A DNA stretch of 21,118 nt from Spirogloea muscicola (Eukaryota; Streptophyta; Zygnematophyceae; Spirogloeales; Spirogloeaceae): the NCBI GenBank assembly GCA_009602725.1, contig WELB01000048.1, forward strand, positions 598,022 through 619,139. Reading direction: 5' to 3'. Positions 5,049 to 20,062 of the stretch are shown here, piece by piece. Every line of letters begins with the position of its first letter. The first letter of the stretch is position 1. The notes below the pieces were generated by a model. The model made no database searches. It saw only the letters and a list, made by a program, of their open reading frames with translations, and was not told the origin of the DNA. Position numbers and translations under genes: made by a program.

Positions 5049-8903
<3,855 letters not shown>

Positions 8904-9553
8904 GGTCACATTGTTTGACATAGTTTCCACTCCGCTGACCCAGCAGAGTCCCCATTTCTTCACTTCAAGCAGAGTCCGCCAGGTGTAGACTTGTTTGCTT
9001 GAAGGCGGATGTACTTTGCATTTGCCTAGTTGCCTTAGGTGCGAGCCGCTCATTGAACATTTATAGGTGCTCTGCTGCACGTTGCTATGGCGCGCACAAA
9101 ATTGATGGAAATCCCGAAACAAACACACTCTCATTCTGTGGTTCCTTCTTCCTACAGATTGAGAAATGAATAAGAATGTCCTAGGCCAGCCCTAGATGCG
9201 AATGACGGCCTGCATGTTGAGCCCGCATGGAGATACAGGTGAGACTGGCTGTGCAGCTGCCTCTGTCCACTTTGTGGAATAGAGGCTTGCTTGGAAGGTC
9301 GACACAGTTACTGTTGGACGAATATGCATTTTGCTTGTATGCTCGGCATAATAAGCCCTTTCGCAATCTACTTTCCCTGCCTACCTAAAACTTTGCAGCA
9401 CAGTGTTGAACCAAGTACAGACCAGTTATCATGCACCATACGAAAATTTAGCCGTCAAAAATAAGTGCTTGACATGACATGTTGACTTCAAGCTCCAAGT
9501 AACAATTTAGCTTAGCAACTTTTGCGTGACAGCTAGGATTGCATCTGATGTGC
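8904..9553. other. Convergent intergenic region (GapB and polymerase 3' ends)
   Basis: About 650 bp between the GapB stop (TAA, 8901-8903) and the polymerase stop codon on the other strand (9554-9556). It should contain the 3' UTRs and terminators of both genes. It is moderately AT-rich; I see no clear hairpin, repeat or exon-like segment, and no polyadenylation signal I can assign confidently. Confidence 0.5.
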
Positions 9554-12500
9554 TCAAGAAAGCGAGTGTCTTGAGGAGAAGAAGTGATCTAGCGTTGCCC
9601 TTCTTGGCCGCTTCACAAGGTCTCCAGCTGATGCTGCGGTCGGCGCCTGGCGAGCGGCGACCGAATCAAACAGCCCGTCTAGAGAAGACTTGAGTGGCCA
9701 TGGCTTCCGATCGAGGCCACCCTGCTCGTTTGCCTGCAGCCTTGCAGCCATATGGAAGTCCTGGTGCTCCTGTGCTGCCTGCAGGCCAGCCCCAACCTGC
9801 TCGCCGCAGTCGGTACACACCCAAGCTGCATCCAATTTGCCGTCAGGGGCCGGCGAGCTGCTTTCTACGTGGTTCCCAACGCCAGAGCTGTCGTCGGGCT
9901 TTGAGTGCCGGTCTGCAGTGGCAGCGGAAAGGCTGCTGGCTGGTGGCAGCCTCCGGAGCTGGCGCATGTAGCTCGCCTCCCGCAGGTCCTGCCAGATGCT
10001 GTCGTCCTCATCGTCTGCAAATGCTTGAAGATTTCAGCATCAAGAAAGGTGTGCAAACGTAACAGCAGTGAGCTGAGCAAGTTACAGCCGTTCGCTCGCA
10101 CGCTTTGATCTGCAGAGCAAGCTAGCAACTCTGGTCGAGCAGACTCAGAGAGGGTCAGAATTCATTGCTGAAATTCTGGAGCAGCGCTTCACACCTTCGC
10201 TTTCAGCTGTGAGAGTCTCGTCATGCCACGCCATCCTGGCCGGCGAAGCTCGACCATCTGTGCCGCCTTTGGCACCAACAGATGAATCTTTTCCCGAGTG
10301 GATAGTTCCACTCCTCTCCTCCCGCTCTGCCCGTGCCTCCCGTTTGCCGCGGTGCCGGCCGCAGCTCGGCGATGTCCGCTGCAGCTCTGCCAGCTGACTC
10401 GGCAGGCTGGCAGGAATCACTGCCATGTTCTGCATCGCCGCATCTTTGTCAAAGTAGCCCTGAATGCTGCAGCCATCCCCGCTTGCTTCACTCCCGTCAG
10501 CAGGAACGAAATTTGTCGCGCCAAGGTTGAGAACCGCGACTTTGAATTCAGCGCCGCTGTCAAACGCCCTCGCCAATAGGCGCACTGCGCAGCTTGTTGC
10601 AGCTTCTGCCCGGCCCTCACTTGGCATTGCCCTCGACGTGACCTCCGCAGGCATTGGGCATGATATTGACGAGAATCGCCTGATGCAGACGATCAAAGTG
10701 AGGATGACTTTGTGGATAAGTTAAGCACACTCCTAACAATGCAGGCAATGAACGAGCTGTCACAGTGCTACATGATTTCGTACTCGGAAGCAACCAGCGA
10801 GTGAGAGCCTGAAAAGTGTTTTCACCCACATTTAGTACAACTTCTGTTACTTGCTGTCTATCCATTAGCCAACGAGACTTCTATGAGCCTAAGCTGGCCA
10901 CCAATAATAGTGAAGAATTTGCAAGGTATAAAATCAAGAAATTAAGACGTCAGCTAGGACCTTGTGGCGCCATGCTAGCAAAAGGGGGTTGGTGGGGCAT
11001 ACCAGCCTGCCCCCTTGGCCCTCCACTTGACAGTCAGCGTCCTGGGCGTCCTCCCCATCTCCTCCCTGTCCTCGTCCAGACGTGCAATGAAGTCGGGGGC
11101 GAGCATGGCCAGAATCGTCTGCGCACAATTCCAACTCAGGTATGATACAAGAACTGTGAGCATGAGAAGTGAGATGTGTCCACCTAGTGAGCTGGTGCTA
11201 GCCCTCATGTAAGCTGCTCAGCATCCACTGTTGGTTAGCTGGGACCACACCTGTGCAATTGCGAGGGACGTGCAACCACGGAAGGAGTCCTCGACGGAGA
11301 TGGACTTGGGCGGGCCCCTGTCCCGCACAGGCGTGCCATCCAGCCCTCTGCTTGCTCCATGCATGAAGGTACCCACCTGCGGCCCAAAGCTGATCAACAA
11401 GAGCGCCCGCCTTGAGTGTCACGATCAATGAGCGGATATCACTTATCAATGAGAATGCAAAGGTAATCAGTGCACCCAGCCTGTGCCATGCAATAACGTG
11501 AGGTATCACAGTTGATAACAATGGCAGAGGCAGAGTGCATAACCATCAAGGGTTTAATGTTCCAGAGGAGGGATAGGCATCCTCAACAGCAAAGCCATTG
11601 CAAAGTTACCCCGACGTGAAGATACAATAGCTCAACCCCAGGTTGCAAGACCTTTGGAGAAAGACATGAATGTAAGTCGACGACATAAGGGTCGAGAGGA
11701 GGCGACGAAAGAGGCAGCACTTACATGGAGATGACGTGGTCAAGCGACAGCTGCTGCAGGTCCGAGATGGTCTGCACGCCAATATCTTGCAATGCTCTAG
11801 AGAAGTGATGACCCACACCTGGCACCTGCATCATGGCTTCAAATTCAGCTCAAGCAATACGAACTTTCAACAACTTGGGAGCATGGCTGTAGGGCCAGTG
11901 TTGGTACGTCACCTACCTTTCCTGCTGGATCACATGGCTGCATATACTGTCTGATTACGAAATGGGTGAACAATACATCAACTCCTCAAAACCCTAAACC
12001 CGACTCCCTAAACCCTGAACAGCCTTACATAGAATACCACTAGAATGTAATGCTCAGTGACGGGACATAGGCAGATAAAGTGTCCAAGTGAACCAATGCT
12101 AGATGTGTTCTTGTGAGAGGACAAGCTGTTGTGGCTGACCTTCCGCGCCGGGAGCGGCGCAATGAAGGAGGCAACCGCGGTTGCTGGCAGTGATGTCTGC
12201 GCATTCGGCTTGTGCAGCCCGCACGCCATCTTTGCCAGCATCTTCTGCAATGACAGCTCTGAGCTAATTCAGTCATGGAATGCATGGAAGGGCTACAACA
12301 GATACGGCTGCGCCAGGACCTTAGGGTGTAGGGTTTGGTTTTAGGGGTTTAGGATTCAAGGTATACGGGCTTAGAGTTTAGGGTTAGGGTTTAGGGTTGT
12401 GTAAATGGAGGTGGGGTTTCCAGCACCGCACATTGTGGGCGATGCCGCAGGAGCAGCGGTACCCGGTCTCGGTCTCGACGGCGCACCGCACCTCCAGCGC

Positions 12501-14157
12501 CACCTGGCTGCCCAACATGAGCTCGACCTCACCTGACGGCCGCACGGAGGCCTCGACCTCCGCACTCTGCTGCTGGGCCCTGGGGATACTTTGGCCCTGC
12601 TGCGGGCTCCTGCCTCTGCTGCCGGCAGGGACCTCCTGGCCGCTGCTCTCGAATGCGTTGTACACCACTCGGCGCGCTGTCCAGTCCTGCGTAGGAGCCT
12701 CCGGAGTGCCGTCCCGCAGCTCTACCACCTCCTCTCTGCTGCCGGGCCCTGGACAGCACCTGGCGCTGCTGCCGCCGCCAGGCGCCAGGTCGGCGGCGAC
12801 CGCCGGGGCCGTAGAGACGACGTGGCCGCAGTACTCAACCGGCACGCTGCCGGCGCGCACCCTTGCAGCTACTTCCGCTGTGAGGTCCACTACGGCCTCA
12901 TCCAGGCCAAGCCTGCACGGGCTCAGCAAGGATCCCGCTTTCAAGTTTCTGAAATGGCGATAGTATATTGGGCTGCGCAGTCATTTGGCACTCGATGCAA
13001 GCGTTTCTCGTTGTAGGGTAGCCAGATTGCGAGACGGGCGTGCAGGTGGGCGGCATCTCACACCTCTCCACTGTACCCCACCGGCGGAGAACGTCCATGA
13101 TGCGCCGGCTGGCCGCGCGGTATGGCGTCAGGTCCTCGCCGTTGATCAGCACCAGGTCGGGGCACCTGCGCGCCAGCCCCAGACTCCACTCCACATGTAA
13201 AGCAGAGGTAGGAAAAGGGCTTGCTGCGGACTTTTTTTGGCATTGCCAAAGCAAAAGCACAGGAGCTGCCAAGCAGCCGTTGCCAGTGCAGGATTCCGAG
13301 CGCAGCCATTGCCTAGCTCCAGCCTCTGCCAGTATACACCTGTATGCATCTGGCTGGCATTTCACAGCCGATTCTTTCATATCAGCAGCCGCTTTCTCTG
13401 CCAGAGTCAAGCGGTTAATGAACGACGGGAGGAGGCTCCGACTTGGTGGCGAAAGGCAGCCCCCGCAAGCGTACTTCCTCTTGGCGTCGATGATGGGGAC
13501 CATCTTGGGCACGCCCAGCCGCCGCGCTGCGTAGTTGCTCGTCACCACCAGATACTTCTGCAGCGCCACATCGAGTGGTGGCAGGATGAAGGAATGGATC
13601 TAAGTTTGTCAGTATTTGATTCAACAACAGTCACTTAGCTGTCGGCTGTATACGTAAGCTCTTACGTGTTGTGTAGAGTTATAATACCGAGGTGTCCAGC
13701 TACCAGGTTTTGAGGCCATTATGACTAAGTGCGTATTTACCGTGGCTGCCAGCATCTGAGAGTGGTATGGCAGACAGACAGGCTCCTGTGCGAGCCGACG
13801 AGGGCAAAGGCAAGCCCACCTGTGTCACTCCGAGGGGCCGGCCGGCAAGCTCAGGCCGCCGCTGCTCCTCCACCTGCGCATAGAAGCAGTCCAGGTCCTG
13901 CCGACGCAGCGGCGCGGCCATGGCTGTCCCGTCAGTCGGTCGCAGCGGCAGGCCACCCAGCAGTGCGGGCGAGCTGGCGTGGCGAGGGCTCGCAGCGGCG
14001 CTGGACGCACGAAGTGGGCTATCACGCGGCGGTGGTCGGGTGCGACGTCGCAGGAGCCGCCGGCGGCGGCGGCGGCGTCGCCAGGGCCAGCGGCCATCTC
14101 CGGCGGCTGCGGTGGCGCAGGGGGGCAGGACGCCAGACGCAGCGCAGGCCCGGGCAT
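9554..14157 (-). CDS. POLI: Y-family translesion DNA polymerase, Pol iota-like core with UBZ finger and PIP-like box
   Basis: Nuclear lesion-bypass polymerase. Exons in order of transcription: 14157-14011, 13897-13820, 13557-13475, 13165-13064, 12912-12432, 12244-12140, 11825-11725, 11389-11251, 11118-11003, 10679-10195, 10014-9554. They join in frame to 765 aa, all GT-AG. Core motifs: RRVIAHF then DLDCFYAQVE (metal-binding Asp50, steric-gate Tyr55), PLGVTQKYLVVTSNYAARR, CPDLVLINGEDLTPYR, GLDEAVVDLT (catalytic Asp141-Glu142), CGIAHNKMLAKMACGLHKPN, a VPGVGHHF helix-hairpin-helix, and EDSFRGCTS. The QKYLVVT, LINGEDLT and EDSF motifs match Pol iota better than Pol eta. Exon 5 carries about 100 extra Gly/Ser/Gln-rich residues inside the palm. 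The C-terminus has an acidic patch, a C2H2 ubiquitin-binding zinc finger (CTDC at 679-682, His696, His700, with HQDFH) and a terminal PCNA-box-like RATLDHFF at 751-758. ATG 14097 is an alternative start in the same exon. Calling it iota rather than eta rests on motif reading only. Confidence 0.9.
11988..12018 (-). repeat. Telomere-like tract, C-rich strand on plus (polymerase intron 6)
   Basis: ACCCTAAACCCGACTCCCTAAACCCTGAA consists of about three imperfect CCCTAAA units. It sits in intron 6 of the polymerase gene, about 120 bp from the edge of exon 6, and is inverted relative to the tract at 12321-12398 on the other side of that exon. Confidence 0.7.
12321..12398 (+). repeat. Telomere-like tract, G-rich strand on plus (polymerase intron 5)
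   Basis: Repeated TTAGGGTGTAGGGTTT, TTTTAGGGGTTTAGG and GTTTAGGGTTAGGG units run for nearly 80 bp with point variation. The tract lies in intron 5 of the polymerase gene, ending about 34 bp before exon 5, and is the longest telomere-like run in the window. Confidence 0.8.
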
Positions 14158-14804
<647 letters not shown>

Positions 14805-17800
14805 ATGGCGGCACCACTGCAGCGGAGCTCCGCAGCGCGGCTGGCCCGGCGGCTGCTGAGAGGCCCAGCAGCGGCCGCCAGCCGCAGCAGCTCTGCCGTG
14901 CCGCGTCCATCCCCACCACCACCAGCACCAACACAGGCAGAATGGGCCACCGGGCGCCCGTTCCGTGGCACTGTGTGGCGGCAGCTCATGCAGAGAGCGC
15001 CACTGGGGACGGCCGCTGCCGCAGAGCCTCAGCAGGCGCCGAGTGCGCCGGATGGCAAGCCATACCAGGTCCGCCTAAAGGTGTAGACTTCGGATTGACG
15101 TGTAGAATCAGGAAAGGATTTAGCTTTCATACCCAGCTGCCAACTTTGGAGTTCTGAATCCTGGAGCTGCTGAGTGAGCCCACCGCCGCTGCTCGACGCT
15201 GCATACAGGTCGTGCGCCTCGACGCTGGCGGCGGGCACCGGCGCATGGCTCTCGACCTCGACGAGCTGGTGAGGCTCTCTCTCGCTCTCTTCTCCTTCTC
15301 GCTCTCGCATTCGCTGCGCAGCAGAGGGGCCACTGCGGCGCTCCTCCTCACTGGTGTCGCTGAGGTTGAAGGCTTCAGCCATTATCGGCCGTCAATGCTT
15401 GCTGCAGGGCATGCGGCCCCGGGACCTGGACGCGGTCGACAGCTCCTCATTCGCGCCGAAGCGGGCTGTCCTGGCCATCCGCAGCAACAAAGTGAGCCCC
15501 CCCTGGCCACTGCGCCAAGAACCCTCCTTTACCACGCCAGACATCCCCGAGGCCGAGGTCCATGACTCTGAGCCGGAGCTTCACGCGCAGCTTCTTGTGA
15601 GGATGGAGAATGTGCGCGCCGTGGTGGCTGAGGATTACGCCCTCTTCTTCGATGCGCGCCGCCCGAGGTGAGCCCTCCTCCTTCTTGGTCCCCCGGCCTG
15701 TCGTTCCTCCTCACTTGCAGAACTCCAGGCTGCCCAAAGCCTTTCTCGGCTGTGTACAGGGTGCTGACGCCGCATGCGTCCATTGTAGACGTGACATAAT
15801 CTTAGCTGCATGAGGCATGAGAGTCGCACCCAACTTTCAAGGACACTAGCATTGCACACCAATGACTATCTCTAAGTTTTGGTGCTTATATGTTGAGCAC
15901 GTTTTGCGGATCAGCAAATCAGTTCCCCTGGATTTTCGATGCAAGTTCTTGCTGAGGTGTGCTGCAGGGCGTCTGCAAAGCGGCACCGGCCGCTTAGCGC
16001 CGGCGCCACAGCGCTGTCGGTCGACAAGGAGGACAACGGCAGCAGAAACGGCGGCGGCGACCAGGAGGAGGATGGCCAAGGAGGTGGCGACAGGCACGTG
16101 CACGGTGGATACATCCGGTGGGTGACCTCGGCCTCTCAACAAAGTCCAGAGAAGCCATGGTCCTTCATTTTGCTTTGCTTCGAGATCAAGCTGTCTTCTT
16201 ATGCTACTCAGACGTCGCACATTGTATCAGCAGCTGAGGCGCTCATCAGCGTTGCCAGGTCGACGGATGCGTTCGCGATGACCATGTCAGAGCTGGAGCG
16301 ACGGCCGGCATCGCCCACATGGGGCACCATGCCCTTCCGGCTCCGCATGCTCGAAGGCATCCTGCACGAGACCACCTCCTTCTTCGACCACAAGTTTGAG
16401 AGGCAGGGCGGCACAACACAAACTCCAACAGCATCACCATTTGCTATACTTTCTTCAGAAGGACCAAAGATGAATGGCAGCGTGACCCAGGTTCTTGCAG
16501 AGTCACTCATCTTTGTGATTGAGGACTTATTTTGTAAAGATTCTGCTGCCATTTCACTTCTATTCCCTCCTGCTCAGAGAAGGCTGCGGATGGTCGTGGA
16601 ACGGATGCTGGAGGACCTCACGGAGGACGTGAGCTTGGCTGGGTACGGGCTCGCATGATGCTCAACAATGGGTTGCTCTGGGACTCGATCATGTGGATGG
16701 ATTTGAGATCGATTGTGCAATCGGTCTACTTACTCTTAAGTGAGGGAGCCGCTGGACGATTCACATGTATTTCAGCACGGCTGACAATCAGGGTGGGGTT
16801 TGTCATGGCGAAGCTTGCACCGCCTGCTGCCACTAAAGGGAGCTCTCACGAGCCTTGAAAATGACGTACGTGAGACTCACTCGGCTATTGAGGAGGTGAT
16901 CTCTTCGAGCTCCCTGTCTTGGCACTCAGCCTTTCTGCTATCCACGTCCGCTCTCTCAACAATAGTTGGGCTAATGTGCTCTGGCTAATCCTCACTTGCT
17001 GGTGTACAAGACGATAGTACAGCATGGAGTTATTGTGTTCACCTTGTATGACGTTCTCGAGGTGCTGTGCTCTGCACAGGTGCTCGGCAATGACGACATG
17101 CTTGGGCTCCTGTGCGACGGGTCCTCCCCGCAGTCTTGGCCCGAGGCAGTCGGCGACTCGGCATACTATGATCTCGGCGCGACCTCCGGCGGGCATAGTG
17201 AGTGCCTCGAAGAATGTTGGCGGTCACTGGGCCAGTCTGGTAGCTTTGGCATTTGTGATTGACAATGGGTTGGTATCTTGGTCTCAAGTCAGATCATCTC
17301 AGCTTAGACTGTAAAGTAAGTCAAAGTTGCAGCACAATCACAACTTATCTACGATCTACGATAAAGCATGCAAATCATTAACGGCATGCTGATTGACCAC
17401 GGAGGCTGCGACCGATGGACGAGCTTATCAGAGCTCCTTGTCACCAGCTTGTGCCACACTGCTGTCCATGTTCTTGATGCAGGACGCAGAACTGGCTCCC
17501 AGGCAGTAGAGGAACGGCAACACAAGGCTAAGGCAGCCACAGTGGACATGCTCATCTCTTACACTAACGAGGTACGAGGCAAGGGCAGAGACTTCCAACT
17601 TCCAACATGATTGATCATGGCAGAGGATCTTTGGGACCCGCAGAATTGGCTCTTAAGGAGGAATTGTGAAAGCCCATCAAGACTGAGTTTCTGATTCAGG
17701 CATGGGTCCTGCTGCTGACTCGCATCTGGCAGCTCAATCTTATTAATCACCAAGCTTGTGGCATGCTCGTGTCGCCTGTGCCAGCTGCAAGATGTAGGGG

Positions 17801-19621
17801 GTGCACTCTCGGAGCTTCGTACCAACATGGAAGCGGCACAAGAGGTCCGTTGGCTTGTACATGCCCAGATCCTGAGCACATTGCAGAAAAACGCACGTGC
17901 ATTCGAAAGGATAAGGGTCGTGAAGCACAAAGGTGTTATTGAAGAGATAGATGCGTTAGTGGCCTGCTTACAAGCTGCTGGCCTGGGAGTCGGGCAGGTG
18001 TGGGAGCTAGGGCTGGACACTACGCGCAACCGCATCATCCGGATCAACCTCTTCACGTCCATTGCTACTCTCTGCCTGACCTCGTGAGATCACCTCACAG
18101 TCTCTTGAATTCCTGTCAACAATTTTAATCTTGCAGTGCCCAGAACTTCCTCATGATGTGGACCATAATGTACAGATACGCATCGAGCTGACAGTCACAG
18201 CCTTCCTTGGCATTCGAAATTTATAACCCTTCAGAAACATGTACTTGTCGCAGACCGATGACAGTTGGACAAGCATGTTAATACAAGCATGCTAACATAT
18301 CAGTCTTGTGGCAATCACTGGATCAGACCCAACAGTCGGCACTGCCCTTGTTTAATGTGGGCGCAGGGCAACTGTACCAGCTGCCTTTTTTGGCATGAAC
18401 ATTCCCAAGTGAGTTTCACTGCGAAGCTGCTTCTCGTTGGCAAGTCATCTGCCATGGCAAGCTGGGCTGAATAAATCTTCAAGTGGCAGGTAGCCTCAAT
18501 CAGGGCTAATCTCAAAGCAACCTCACTAAACGCTGTCATGTGGCGCAATCTCAGTGGGGTGGAGGACCACCCGCACTTTTTTGCTTATGTGGTAGGTAGC
18601 ACTGCGCTGTCCTCAGTTGCAATACTTGCAGTCTTCATTTACTTCTTCCAGATTCGACCGAGCACGGCTGACAGGAGACGTGCCCAAGTAGGCCTTTTCT
18701 CTTGTCTTATCTCTGCATACTGATTGACCATACATGTGTTTGATCAAATGCATGGTACCATGCTTGTTTGTAAGTTGATGCTACATCGGGTTGCCTGGTG
18801 ACAATTCCAGCTTGTCCTGAACAATCTTTCCATGAACAAGGAGTGATGACCTCTTCTCTGCCCATATGATGTAACAATTCCTGTCCACACTTGCAGGACC
18901 AAGCAGCGCTTCGGGACCTTCTTCAGCATATGGACGACATTGACGATATAGTCCACGCCGTAGCTAGCCGAGGTGGGCCTTGGTTTGTCAGTGCTTATAG
19001 TGATCCTGCAAGGCTAGGCATGGTTTCAGGTCTTGCTTGTTCAAGACTTGGCCAACAGAAGCTGGTGCTTGGTGTGCACTCCGCTTAATTCACACCGCTG
19101 ACTGGCAACGTACGTATCTGCTAGGGCTGCATAATTTCAACGCTTAAAATGAGCTATGCCTGAGTCATTACTACCTTGGAATCTGCAGATGGAATAGTGA
19201 AAAAGGACGACTTCCTTCTCCTGTGCAAGGCTCACCCATCTGCCAAGAACGTCCGCAAGGTGAGGGGCCCACGTTCTTTGAGAGCGAACAAGCACAAGCC
19301 ATGTCTGTTCTTGTGCGGCTGTACTTAAGCTGGCATCTCAGGCATGCATCAACTGTAGAATTACTGCGTATTGCAGAGGGAGCTGGACCTTGTGTTCAGG
19401 ATGCTTGACACAGACCACGACGGGCGCCTTGATGTACGTCTTGTGCATCTTCGCAATCTAAGAGTTGCCATAGCATGCACATCCTGCCCGTGTTGCAGTT
19501 CCTGGGTGTTCTTAAGGCTACTGGAGAAAACTTGTCCTCAATCAGTCAAAGTGGCCATGCATACTCCATGTTTCCAGAGAGACATGGTACTTGCTTGTTG
19601 GGCAAGTTGGCTTTTGAGTAG
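14805..19621 (+). CDS. MRS2: MRS2/CorA-type Mg2+ transporter with C-terminal EF-hand region
   Basis: Membrane Mg2+ channel of the CorA/Mrs2 family, probably in the mitochondrial inner membrane. Exons: 14805-15068, 15209-15268, 15408-15491, 15591-15667, 15760-15777, 15968-16117, 16259-16402, 16580-16642, 16814-16895, 17080-17197, 17483-17571, 17785-17844, 17998-18083, 18367-18408, 18555-18687, 18897-18972, 19189-19259, 19377-19433, 19499-19621. Residues 1-45 are Arg/Ala/Ser-rich without acids, a mitochondrial-type leader. Family motifs follow: MRPRDLDAVD, MENVRAVVAEDYALFFDAR, MPFRLRMLEGIL, LHRLLPLKGALTSLEND, GNDDMLGLL, ELRTNMEAAQEVWELGLD and RNRIIRINLFT. The signature GMN (441-443) closes membrane helix 1 (about 419-440); GVEDHP leads to helix 2 (about 455-477). 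The frame then continues: DGIVKKDDF (516-524, degenerate EF loop) and DTDHDGRLD (550-558, good EF loop start). The 18-nt exon 5, the start of exon 7, the GC donor after 16402 and the 3' end are uncertain; the last exon may extend or splice on towards 19795-19858. Confidence 0.88.
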
Positions 19622-20062
19622 TGGTTGCGTCTTCGTAAGTAGTGGCTGTGTAACTGCACTATTGCACAACCTGCAGTCAGCACTAAGGTCATAGCCAATT
19701 CTGGCAACCTTTGGCAGATGCTTCTGCGACCGCGAGGTGCCCTCTTAAAGGACCTGATCATACTTTCAGTCATCTGCTTGGCAGGCGAAGGAGATTCGAG
19801 CGGCCTTGGAAAATCATCAGCAAGCACATCCACACCGAGAGTTCTTCTCTGCTCGCAGGTTTTGGGAATGATTGTAAGCTTCTTGGGTGTTAACTCTCGT
19901 TTGCCATTTCTATATGCAAGAACAAGGCTGCTCCAATCTGCAGCCTGTTCAGGAGAATATAAGAAACTAAAGAGTAGTTGAAGACCTCGAACATGCTATG
20001 ATTCAGTATTACCACCCCCTGCATTTGTAAGTGTAATGTGTTCACAGCGGATTGGGTTGCTT

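Follow-up and report, generated by a model that had tools for sequence, protein, structure and literature searches.

The window, by which we mean the whole stretch of 21,118 nucleotides analysed here (contig C48, 598022-619139), carries on its plus strand an 18-exon gene (14805-19871) that encodes a 580-residue MRS2-type protein (Table 1). The splice sites were chained by hand, and in this hand-chained model the introns are GT-AG with a single exception, as intron 6 (16403-16579) is GC-AG in all three copies of the gene. The assembly on which the genome searches ran contains these copies in 153 Mb and 471 contigs. The donor of exon 1 is CAG/GTCCGC (15068/15069). It was set at this position because neither sister copy retains the donor modelled first (GTGTAG, following 15080), which was rejected. 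The later donor would give 584 residues (four extra), and the early searches used this 584-residue version.

Table 1. Exons of the MRS2-type gene and the rejected alternative last exon, in window positions.
Feature	Position	Strand	Content or basis
Exon 1	14805..15068	+	Start codon; N-terminus rich in Arg and poor in acids, resembling a targeting peptide for an organelle
Exon 2	15209..15268	+	Splice model and sister copies
Exon 3	15408..15491	+	Carries RPRDLDAVDSSSF, MRS2 N-domain; alignment to solved MRS2
Exon 4	15591..15667	+	Splice model and sister copies
Exon 5	15968..16117	+	Low-complexity insert; one of the exons that vary most from copy to copy
Exon 6	16259..16402	+	Followed by the GC-AG intron
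Exon 7	16580..16642	+	Splice model and sister copies
Exon 8	16814..16895	+	Splice model and sister copies
Exon 9	17080..17197	+	Splice model and sister copies
Exon 10	17483..17571	+	Splice model and sister copies
Exon 11	17785..17844	+	Splice model and sister copies
Exon 12	17998..18083	+	Pore helix (TM1) with Asp404, Arg407, Asn414, Thr421; alignment to solved MRS2
Exon 13	18367..18408	+	GMN motif, residues 435-437
Exon 14	18555..18687	+	Membrane helix 2 and basic linker QIRPSTADRRRAQ
Exon 15	18897..18972	+	Tail; entering helix of EF-hand 1
Exon 16	19189..19259	+	Most of degenerate EF loop 1 VASRDGIVKKDD and its exit helix
Exon 17	19377..19433	+	Entering helix of EF-hand 2 and loop residues one to nine
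Exon 18	19785..19871	+	Rest of EF loop 2 DTDHDGRLDAKE, exit helix, C-terminus, stop
Rejected last exon (implied by the earlier end point)	19499..19621	+	Frame-breaking gaps between copies

The MRS2 channel part

The Pfam MRS2-like model PF22099 matched the window protein with 76.6 bits (cut-off 27, E 2.2e-21), and it matched at E <= 0.01 in all three gene copies. The general CorA profile PF01544 reached 20.8 bits and remained below its cut-off of 27 (E 2.6e-4, residues 375-467). As the narrower MRS2-like model scores above its cut-off, we still file the protein as MRS2. The first-pass annotation had described an MRS2/CorA transporter extended by an EF-hand region; profile searches of the spliced protein placed both the MRS2-like and the EF-hand_7 models over their cut-offs, whereas the general CorA model did not follow. 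The nearest solved chains are Mrs2 8q8p (3.7e-15) and two entries named 'MRS2 homolog, mitochondrial', 8tul (3.4e-11) and 8ip3 (3.5e-11), which we take to be human MRS2, consistent with their numbering.

The GMN motif aligns with that of solved MRS2. In the ungapped alignment stretch before it, from which the pore residues were mapped by eye, Asp404, Arg407, Asn414 and Thr421 align with D329, R332, N339 and T346 of solved MRS2, and Ile411 stands where solved MRS2 has its second gate residue, M336. The excerpted text of PMC10632456 places D329, R332, N339 and T346 along the MRS2 pore or as its gate. Helix 2 rises above a Kyte-Doolittle value of 1.6 (scan starts 448-457); helix 1 stays below 1.6 and was placed by the alignment to solved MRS2.

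The N-terminal 60 residues contain 10 Arg/Lys against 1 Asp/Glu, with a hydrophobic moment of up to 0.69, a composition that is compatible with import into a mitochondrion or a plastid. A chlorophyll-binding family profile matched 68 of 100 scored candidates in the genome, from which we take the source to be a photosynthetic eukaryote. As the genome has light-harvesting proteins, the plastid is a possible target. A search for the mitochondrial Ca2+ uniporter family gave no match anywhere and is uninformative on matrix Ca2+ uptake.

The EF-hand tail and the end of the gene

Past helix 2 and the basic linker QIRPSTADRRRAQ, the protein continues in frame for 96 further residues (288 bases) that hold an EF-hand pair. 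This continuation had been proposed in the first-pass annotation and was borne out in the gene model: the GMN exon, the helix-2 exon and the in-phase sequence beyond are joined by GT-AG introns and kept in the sister copies. Exons 15, 16 (with DGIVKKDDF) and 17 (with DTDHDGRLD) are likewise in phase, with the same frame and the same splice dinucleotides in the two sister copies. Read through instead of spliced, the start of intron 14 (window 18688-18723) gives VGLFSCLISAY followed by a stop, which may represent a short isoform with the usual length of an MRS2.

EF-hand_7 matched the whole window protein with 37.2 bits (cut-off 30, E 3.9e-9) and was matched at E <= 0.01 in all three copies, and EF-hand_6 scored 27.7 bits, over its cut-off of 25. 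Three of the five EF-hand models remained under their cut-offs (EF-hand_1, 24.3 vs 25.4; EF-hand_5, 22.4 vs 25.9; EF-hand_8, 19.7 vs 28). Searched on its own, the tail matches solved EF-hand chains, among them calbindin, CBL2 and centrin; the best of 364 matches at E <= 1 reaches 2.7e-6. The two NCBIfam matches, both far below cut-off, also lie within the EF-hand region.

The two hands differ in their ligands. EF loop 1 VASRDGIVKKDD (residues 506-517, the first part encoded in exon 15) is without acids at positions 1, 3 and 9 and has an incomplete canonical ligand set. EF loop 2 DTDHDGRLDAKE (residues 544-555) has acids at positions 1, 3, 5, 9 and 12 and Gly at position 6, and thus all canonical ligands. 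The early description of one degenerate and one good loop agrees with this. With these three acids absent from loop 1, each subunit should have no more than one ion site.

Loop 2 is completed by the splice to 19785. The first-pass annotation gave 19621 as the end of the chain without spelling out a last exon. A splice to 19499 (FLGVLKATGENL...) opens a frame that stops at 19621, but this end point is not supported. With the splice to 19499, position 12 of the loop is not Glu, and a tail with this last exon scores 27.8 bits with EF-hand_7, below the cut-off of 30, whereas the tail with the last exon at 19785 scores 46.2 bits (5.8e-12). Alignment of 19500-19621 with the sister copies shows gaps of 24, 1 and 4 bases for C11 and of 25, 19, 1 and 4 bases for C26, and in neither copy does this frame stop at 19621 as it does in the window. 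We rejected this last exon on the EF-hand_7 score and the frame-shifting gaps.

Loops were also scanned for with an EF-loop pattern after PS00018. Its match DTDHDGRLDAKEI was found in the window, in locus L025 and in C11. In the 1213 bases past helix 2 in the window, a splice-made match (frame and chain not required) occurs once and is loop 2. Dinucleotide shuffles gave splice-made matches in 0 of 100 and 10 of 2000 sequences and an unspliced match in 2 of 2000. In C11 a further match, DTDHDGRLDVLEM, arises via a second, different acceptor, so the splice cannot be assigned from the pattern by itself.

Sister copies and other MRS2 loci

A DNA search with window 17990-19900 identified two sister copies of the gene in the same assembly, on contigs C11 (87% identity) and C26 (86%). 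All 18 exons are in frame in all three copies, and the sole coding gap is one of six bases in exon 1 of C11. Across the three copies the splice dinucleotides are conserved throughout, apart from the exon 1 donor modelled first. Introns diverge by 0.146 (window/C11), 0.130 (window/C26) and 0.155 (C11/C26). For the same pairs, dN/dS is 0.065, 0.106 and 0.159 in the tail, 0.251, 0.183 and 0.174 in the core (exons 2-14) and 0.859, 0.164 and 1.724 in exon 1; the exon 1 values are as expected for what would be a loosely constrained targeting peptide. Changes in the tail are few (3, 2 and 5 amino-acid against 11, 5 and 8 silent changes), and dN is below dS with one-sided Fisher p values of 4.5e-6, 0.0064 and 0.0016, the three pairs not being independent. 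Introns accumulated 40 and 36 indel events per 3324 bases (11-12 per kb). The tail has none in its 288 bases, where 3.5 and 3.1 would be expected at the intron rate (Poisson P(none) 0.031 and 0.044). All ligand positions of EF loop 2 are identical in the three copies. At the level of sequence, these comparisons show that the tail reading frame is under purifying selection.

Window 6001-9000 also matches C11 and C26, at a similar distance from the gene (11.99 kb on C48, 11.7 kb on C26 and 11.6 kb on C11). As these matches lie on the same contigs, longer segments, and not the MRS2 gene alone, are present three times. Weaker matches to window 6001-9000 form a further trio on C37, C6 and C21. The trio pattern, together with an intron divergence of 13-16%, suggests a triplicated or hybrid genome. 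With the tail as query, 12 scored candidates matched in the genome, four per copy and all within the three copies. As few candidates were scored and no calmodulin-like gene was returned, this search is insensitive and is no proof of absence.

The PF22099 search of the genome (E <= 10) returned 22 exon matches in 11 other loci, which we grouped into five (L026-L036, on C135, C62, C29, C181, C51, C7, C4, C55 and C40; two or three copies per group). The evidence for the loci on C55 and C40 consists of weak matches (best E 0.46 and 0.75) and their GMN exons. The list of paralogues may be incomplete, because the search missed the window's own gene. PF01544 gave no match among 9 scored candidates in the genome, probably because the exons are short. 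Very long open frames at L026, L027, L031 and L032 are runs of N.

In all 11 other loci the frame reaches a stop no more than about a dozen residues past helix 2 and gives a short basic end. The ends before the stop are WYCKYKRLIE (L026, L027, L028), AYARRRHIL (L029, L030), WYFRHKKLMLT (L031) and WYFRYKKLMLT (L032) and, in frames read by eye after GMN, YVYLRQRRIL (L033), YVYLRRRRIL (L034), GYARYRLLIT (L035) and GYARYRRLIT (L036). The statement of the first-pass annotation that MRS2 proteins end soon after helix 2 applies to these 11 loci in terms of first in-frame genomic stops, not of transcripts, and the window gene has such a stop too, in intron 14. A spliced tail of another kind is possible at these loci. 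The EF-loop pattern, plain or splice-made, is absent from all 11 (2101-2560 bases around and after GMN, free of N), in a scan whose positive controls, namely the window, L025 and C11 (by alignment), matched; L024 was left out, as its anchor letters differ. Relatives outside this genome were sought in viral_contigs and genome_contigs, neither of which is a eukaryote collection, and none was found there.

Proposed function of the fused tail

At the gene level, an organellar MRS2/CorA-type channel is almost certainly fused with a C-terminal EF-hand pair in one polypeptide. The locus could instead hold two adjacent genes, namely a conventional MRS2 read into intron 14 and ending there soon after helix 2 (AQVGLFSCLISAY stop), and a separate small EF-hand gene made of exons 15-18. 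Reading through intron 14 does give an ordinary MRS2 length and is open in all three copies, exon 15 has an in-frame ATG, and the other MRS2 loci here read to a similar stop. However, exons 14 and 15 join in phase 0 across a gap of 209 bases. All three copies share the donor GTAGGC and the acceptor TTGCAG, and over its first 36 bases intron 14 shows no more conservation than introns 13, 15 and 16 do at their starts. This makes two genes highly improbable. The same open ending, VGL..SCL.SAY in all three copies, could also mark one of two isoforms, with a short channel produced when intron 14 is retained or cleaved early and the EF-hand form when it is spliced, such that RNA processing would set Ca2+ sensitivity. 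As the short ending shows no extra constraint and its 11 open codons could be due to chance, we consider such a switch improbable.

For the fused protein, we infer the topology, the ion bound, the direction of control and the mitochondrial location, which would combine as follows. EF2 would be the canonical ion-binding hand, with EF1 as its degenerate partner, and EF2 probably binds a divalent ion. The N-domain and the end of helix 2 would lie on the matrix (or stroma) side, as in human MRS2, whose N-domain is on the matrix side and whose helix 2 also ends there (PMC10632456, in part). With human MRS2 topology presumed kept, a pentamer would place five EF-hand pairs beside the N-domain funnel. 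In the simplest and most likely course, Ca2+ would bind EF2, perhaps in competition with Mg2+, and the resulting change in the packing of the tail on the N-domain or helix 2 would shift the open probability. A Ca2+ input would thus be added on top of the usual Mg2+ feedback. Regulation of the channel by the tail in response to Ca2+ is about as likely as not. The specific proposal of a Ca2+-gated organellar Mg2+ channel with a built-in sensor, in which Ca2+ transients in the matrix or stroma would act through the tail to set Mg2+ entry directly, is more tentative. Taken as a whole, a fused channel with a Ca2+-responsive tail is the explanation that we moderately favour.

Other roles for the tail were weighed against a Ca2+-responsive one. 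EF-hand pairs with one degenerate hand can be structural, and one of the two hands here is degenerate, which would suit a docking or assembly module that serves a partner protein with little dependence on ions. The identity of all EF2 ligand positions in the three copies argues against this role, which we hold to be rather unlikely. EF-hands are also able to bind Mg2+, and the pair may do so instead of binding Ca2+ in the organelle, as an extra Mg2+ feedback site. In the sections of PMC9909464 used here, matrix Mg2+ is about 0.5-1.5 mM and exceeds most matrix Ca2+ estimates, which are under 100 uM. However, position 12 of EF2 is Glu, the commoner residue, where Asp likely weakens Ca2+ binding (PMC6358941, in part), and the MRS2 N-domain already has Mg2+ sites (PMC10632456, in part), leaving Mg2+ a possible ligand but, on balance, not a likely one.

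The MRS2-like Pfam match, GMN, the pore residues and the targeting-like N-terminus are shared with MRS2 channels (human MRS2, yeast Mrs2, plant MRS2/MGT), whereas the 96 extra residues with an EF-hand pair past helix 2 set the window protein apart. In MICU1-MCU, the EF-hands of MICU1 regulate MCU, an organellar divalent-cation channel, from a separate subunit, and the channel fold differs. The EF-hand domain of the ATP-Mg/Pi carrier (APC/SCaMC) lies outside the matrix; it is an N-terminal four-hand domain, and the carrier itself is an unrelated SLC25 protein. According to part of PMC6283063, this mitochondrial carrier owes its response to Ca2+ to an EF-hand domain fused to it, and the window protein would share such a responsiveness; the same text names MICU1-MCU, which is alike in tying EF-hands to an organellar divalent-cation channel. 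LETM1 is an inner-membrane cation transporter with a matrix-side C-terminal EF-hand region of one canonical and one proposed non-canonical hand (PMC6358941, in part). Unlike the window protein, LETM1 has an unrelated membrane part with one helix and is no Mg2+ channel.

Titles and abstract openings in the literature searched yielded no MRS2, CorA or magnesium transporter with an EF-hand. Two papers on Mg2+ transporters, one of them a review and the other a phylogenetic survey (PMC9276622, PMC13022745), have 0 mentions of the term EF-hand in the accessible main text, and a term search of the accessible text of PMC10284544 found separate mentions of EF-hand and MRS2 and no joint protein. The same architecture may already be present, unremarked, in annotated algal genomes. 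The effect of Ca2+ on MRS2 is unsettled, as the portions of two papers drawn on here disagree: PMC13022745, citing a 2025 paper, names Ca2+ alongside Mg2+ as a regulator of MRS2 activity, whereas PMC9909464 suggests that Ca2+ is without a crucial role for MRS2 and gives an N-domain affinity of about 1 mM. An MRS2 with its own EF-hand sensor, if true, would allow a direct test of how Ca2+ is coupled to Mg2+, as a single module could be deleted or mutated. It would mean that a Mg2+ channel also took the EF-hand fusion route of the ATP-Mg/Pi carrier, and it would provide a one-protein link from Ca2+ signalling to the Mg2+ supply of an organelle.

Elsewhere in the window, a long (TC)n run with one N at its end (about 14269-14545) lies about 260 bases upstream of the start codon of the MRS2-type gene. 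An open frame on the minus strand, MAAPLRRQDLDCFYAQVEEQRRPELAGRPLGVTQ (about 13820-13925), presumably resembles the start of a Y-family DNA polymerase. Interstitial CCCTAAA / TTTAGGG repeats occur at about 11985-12025 and 12320-12400, and we take these to resemble plant-type telomere units.
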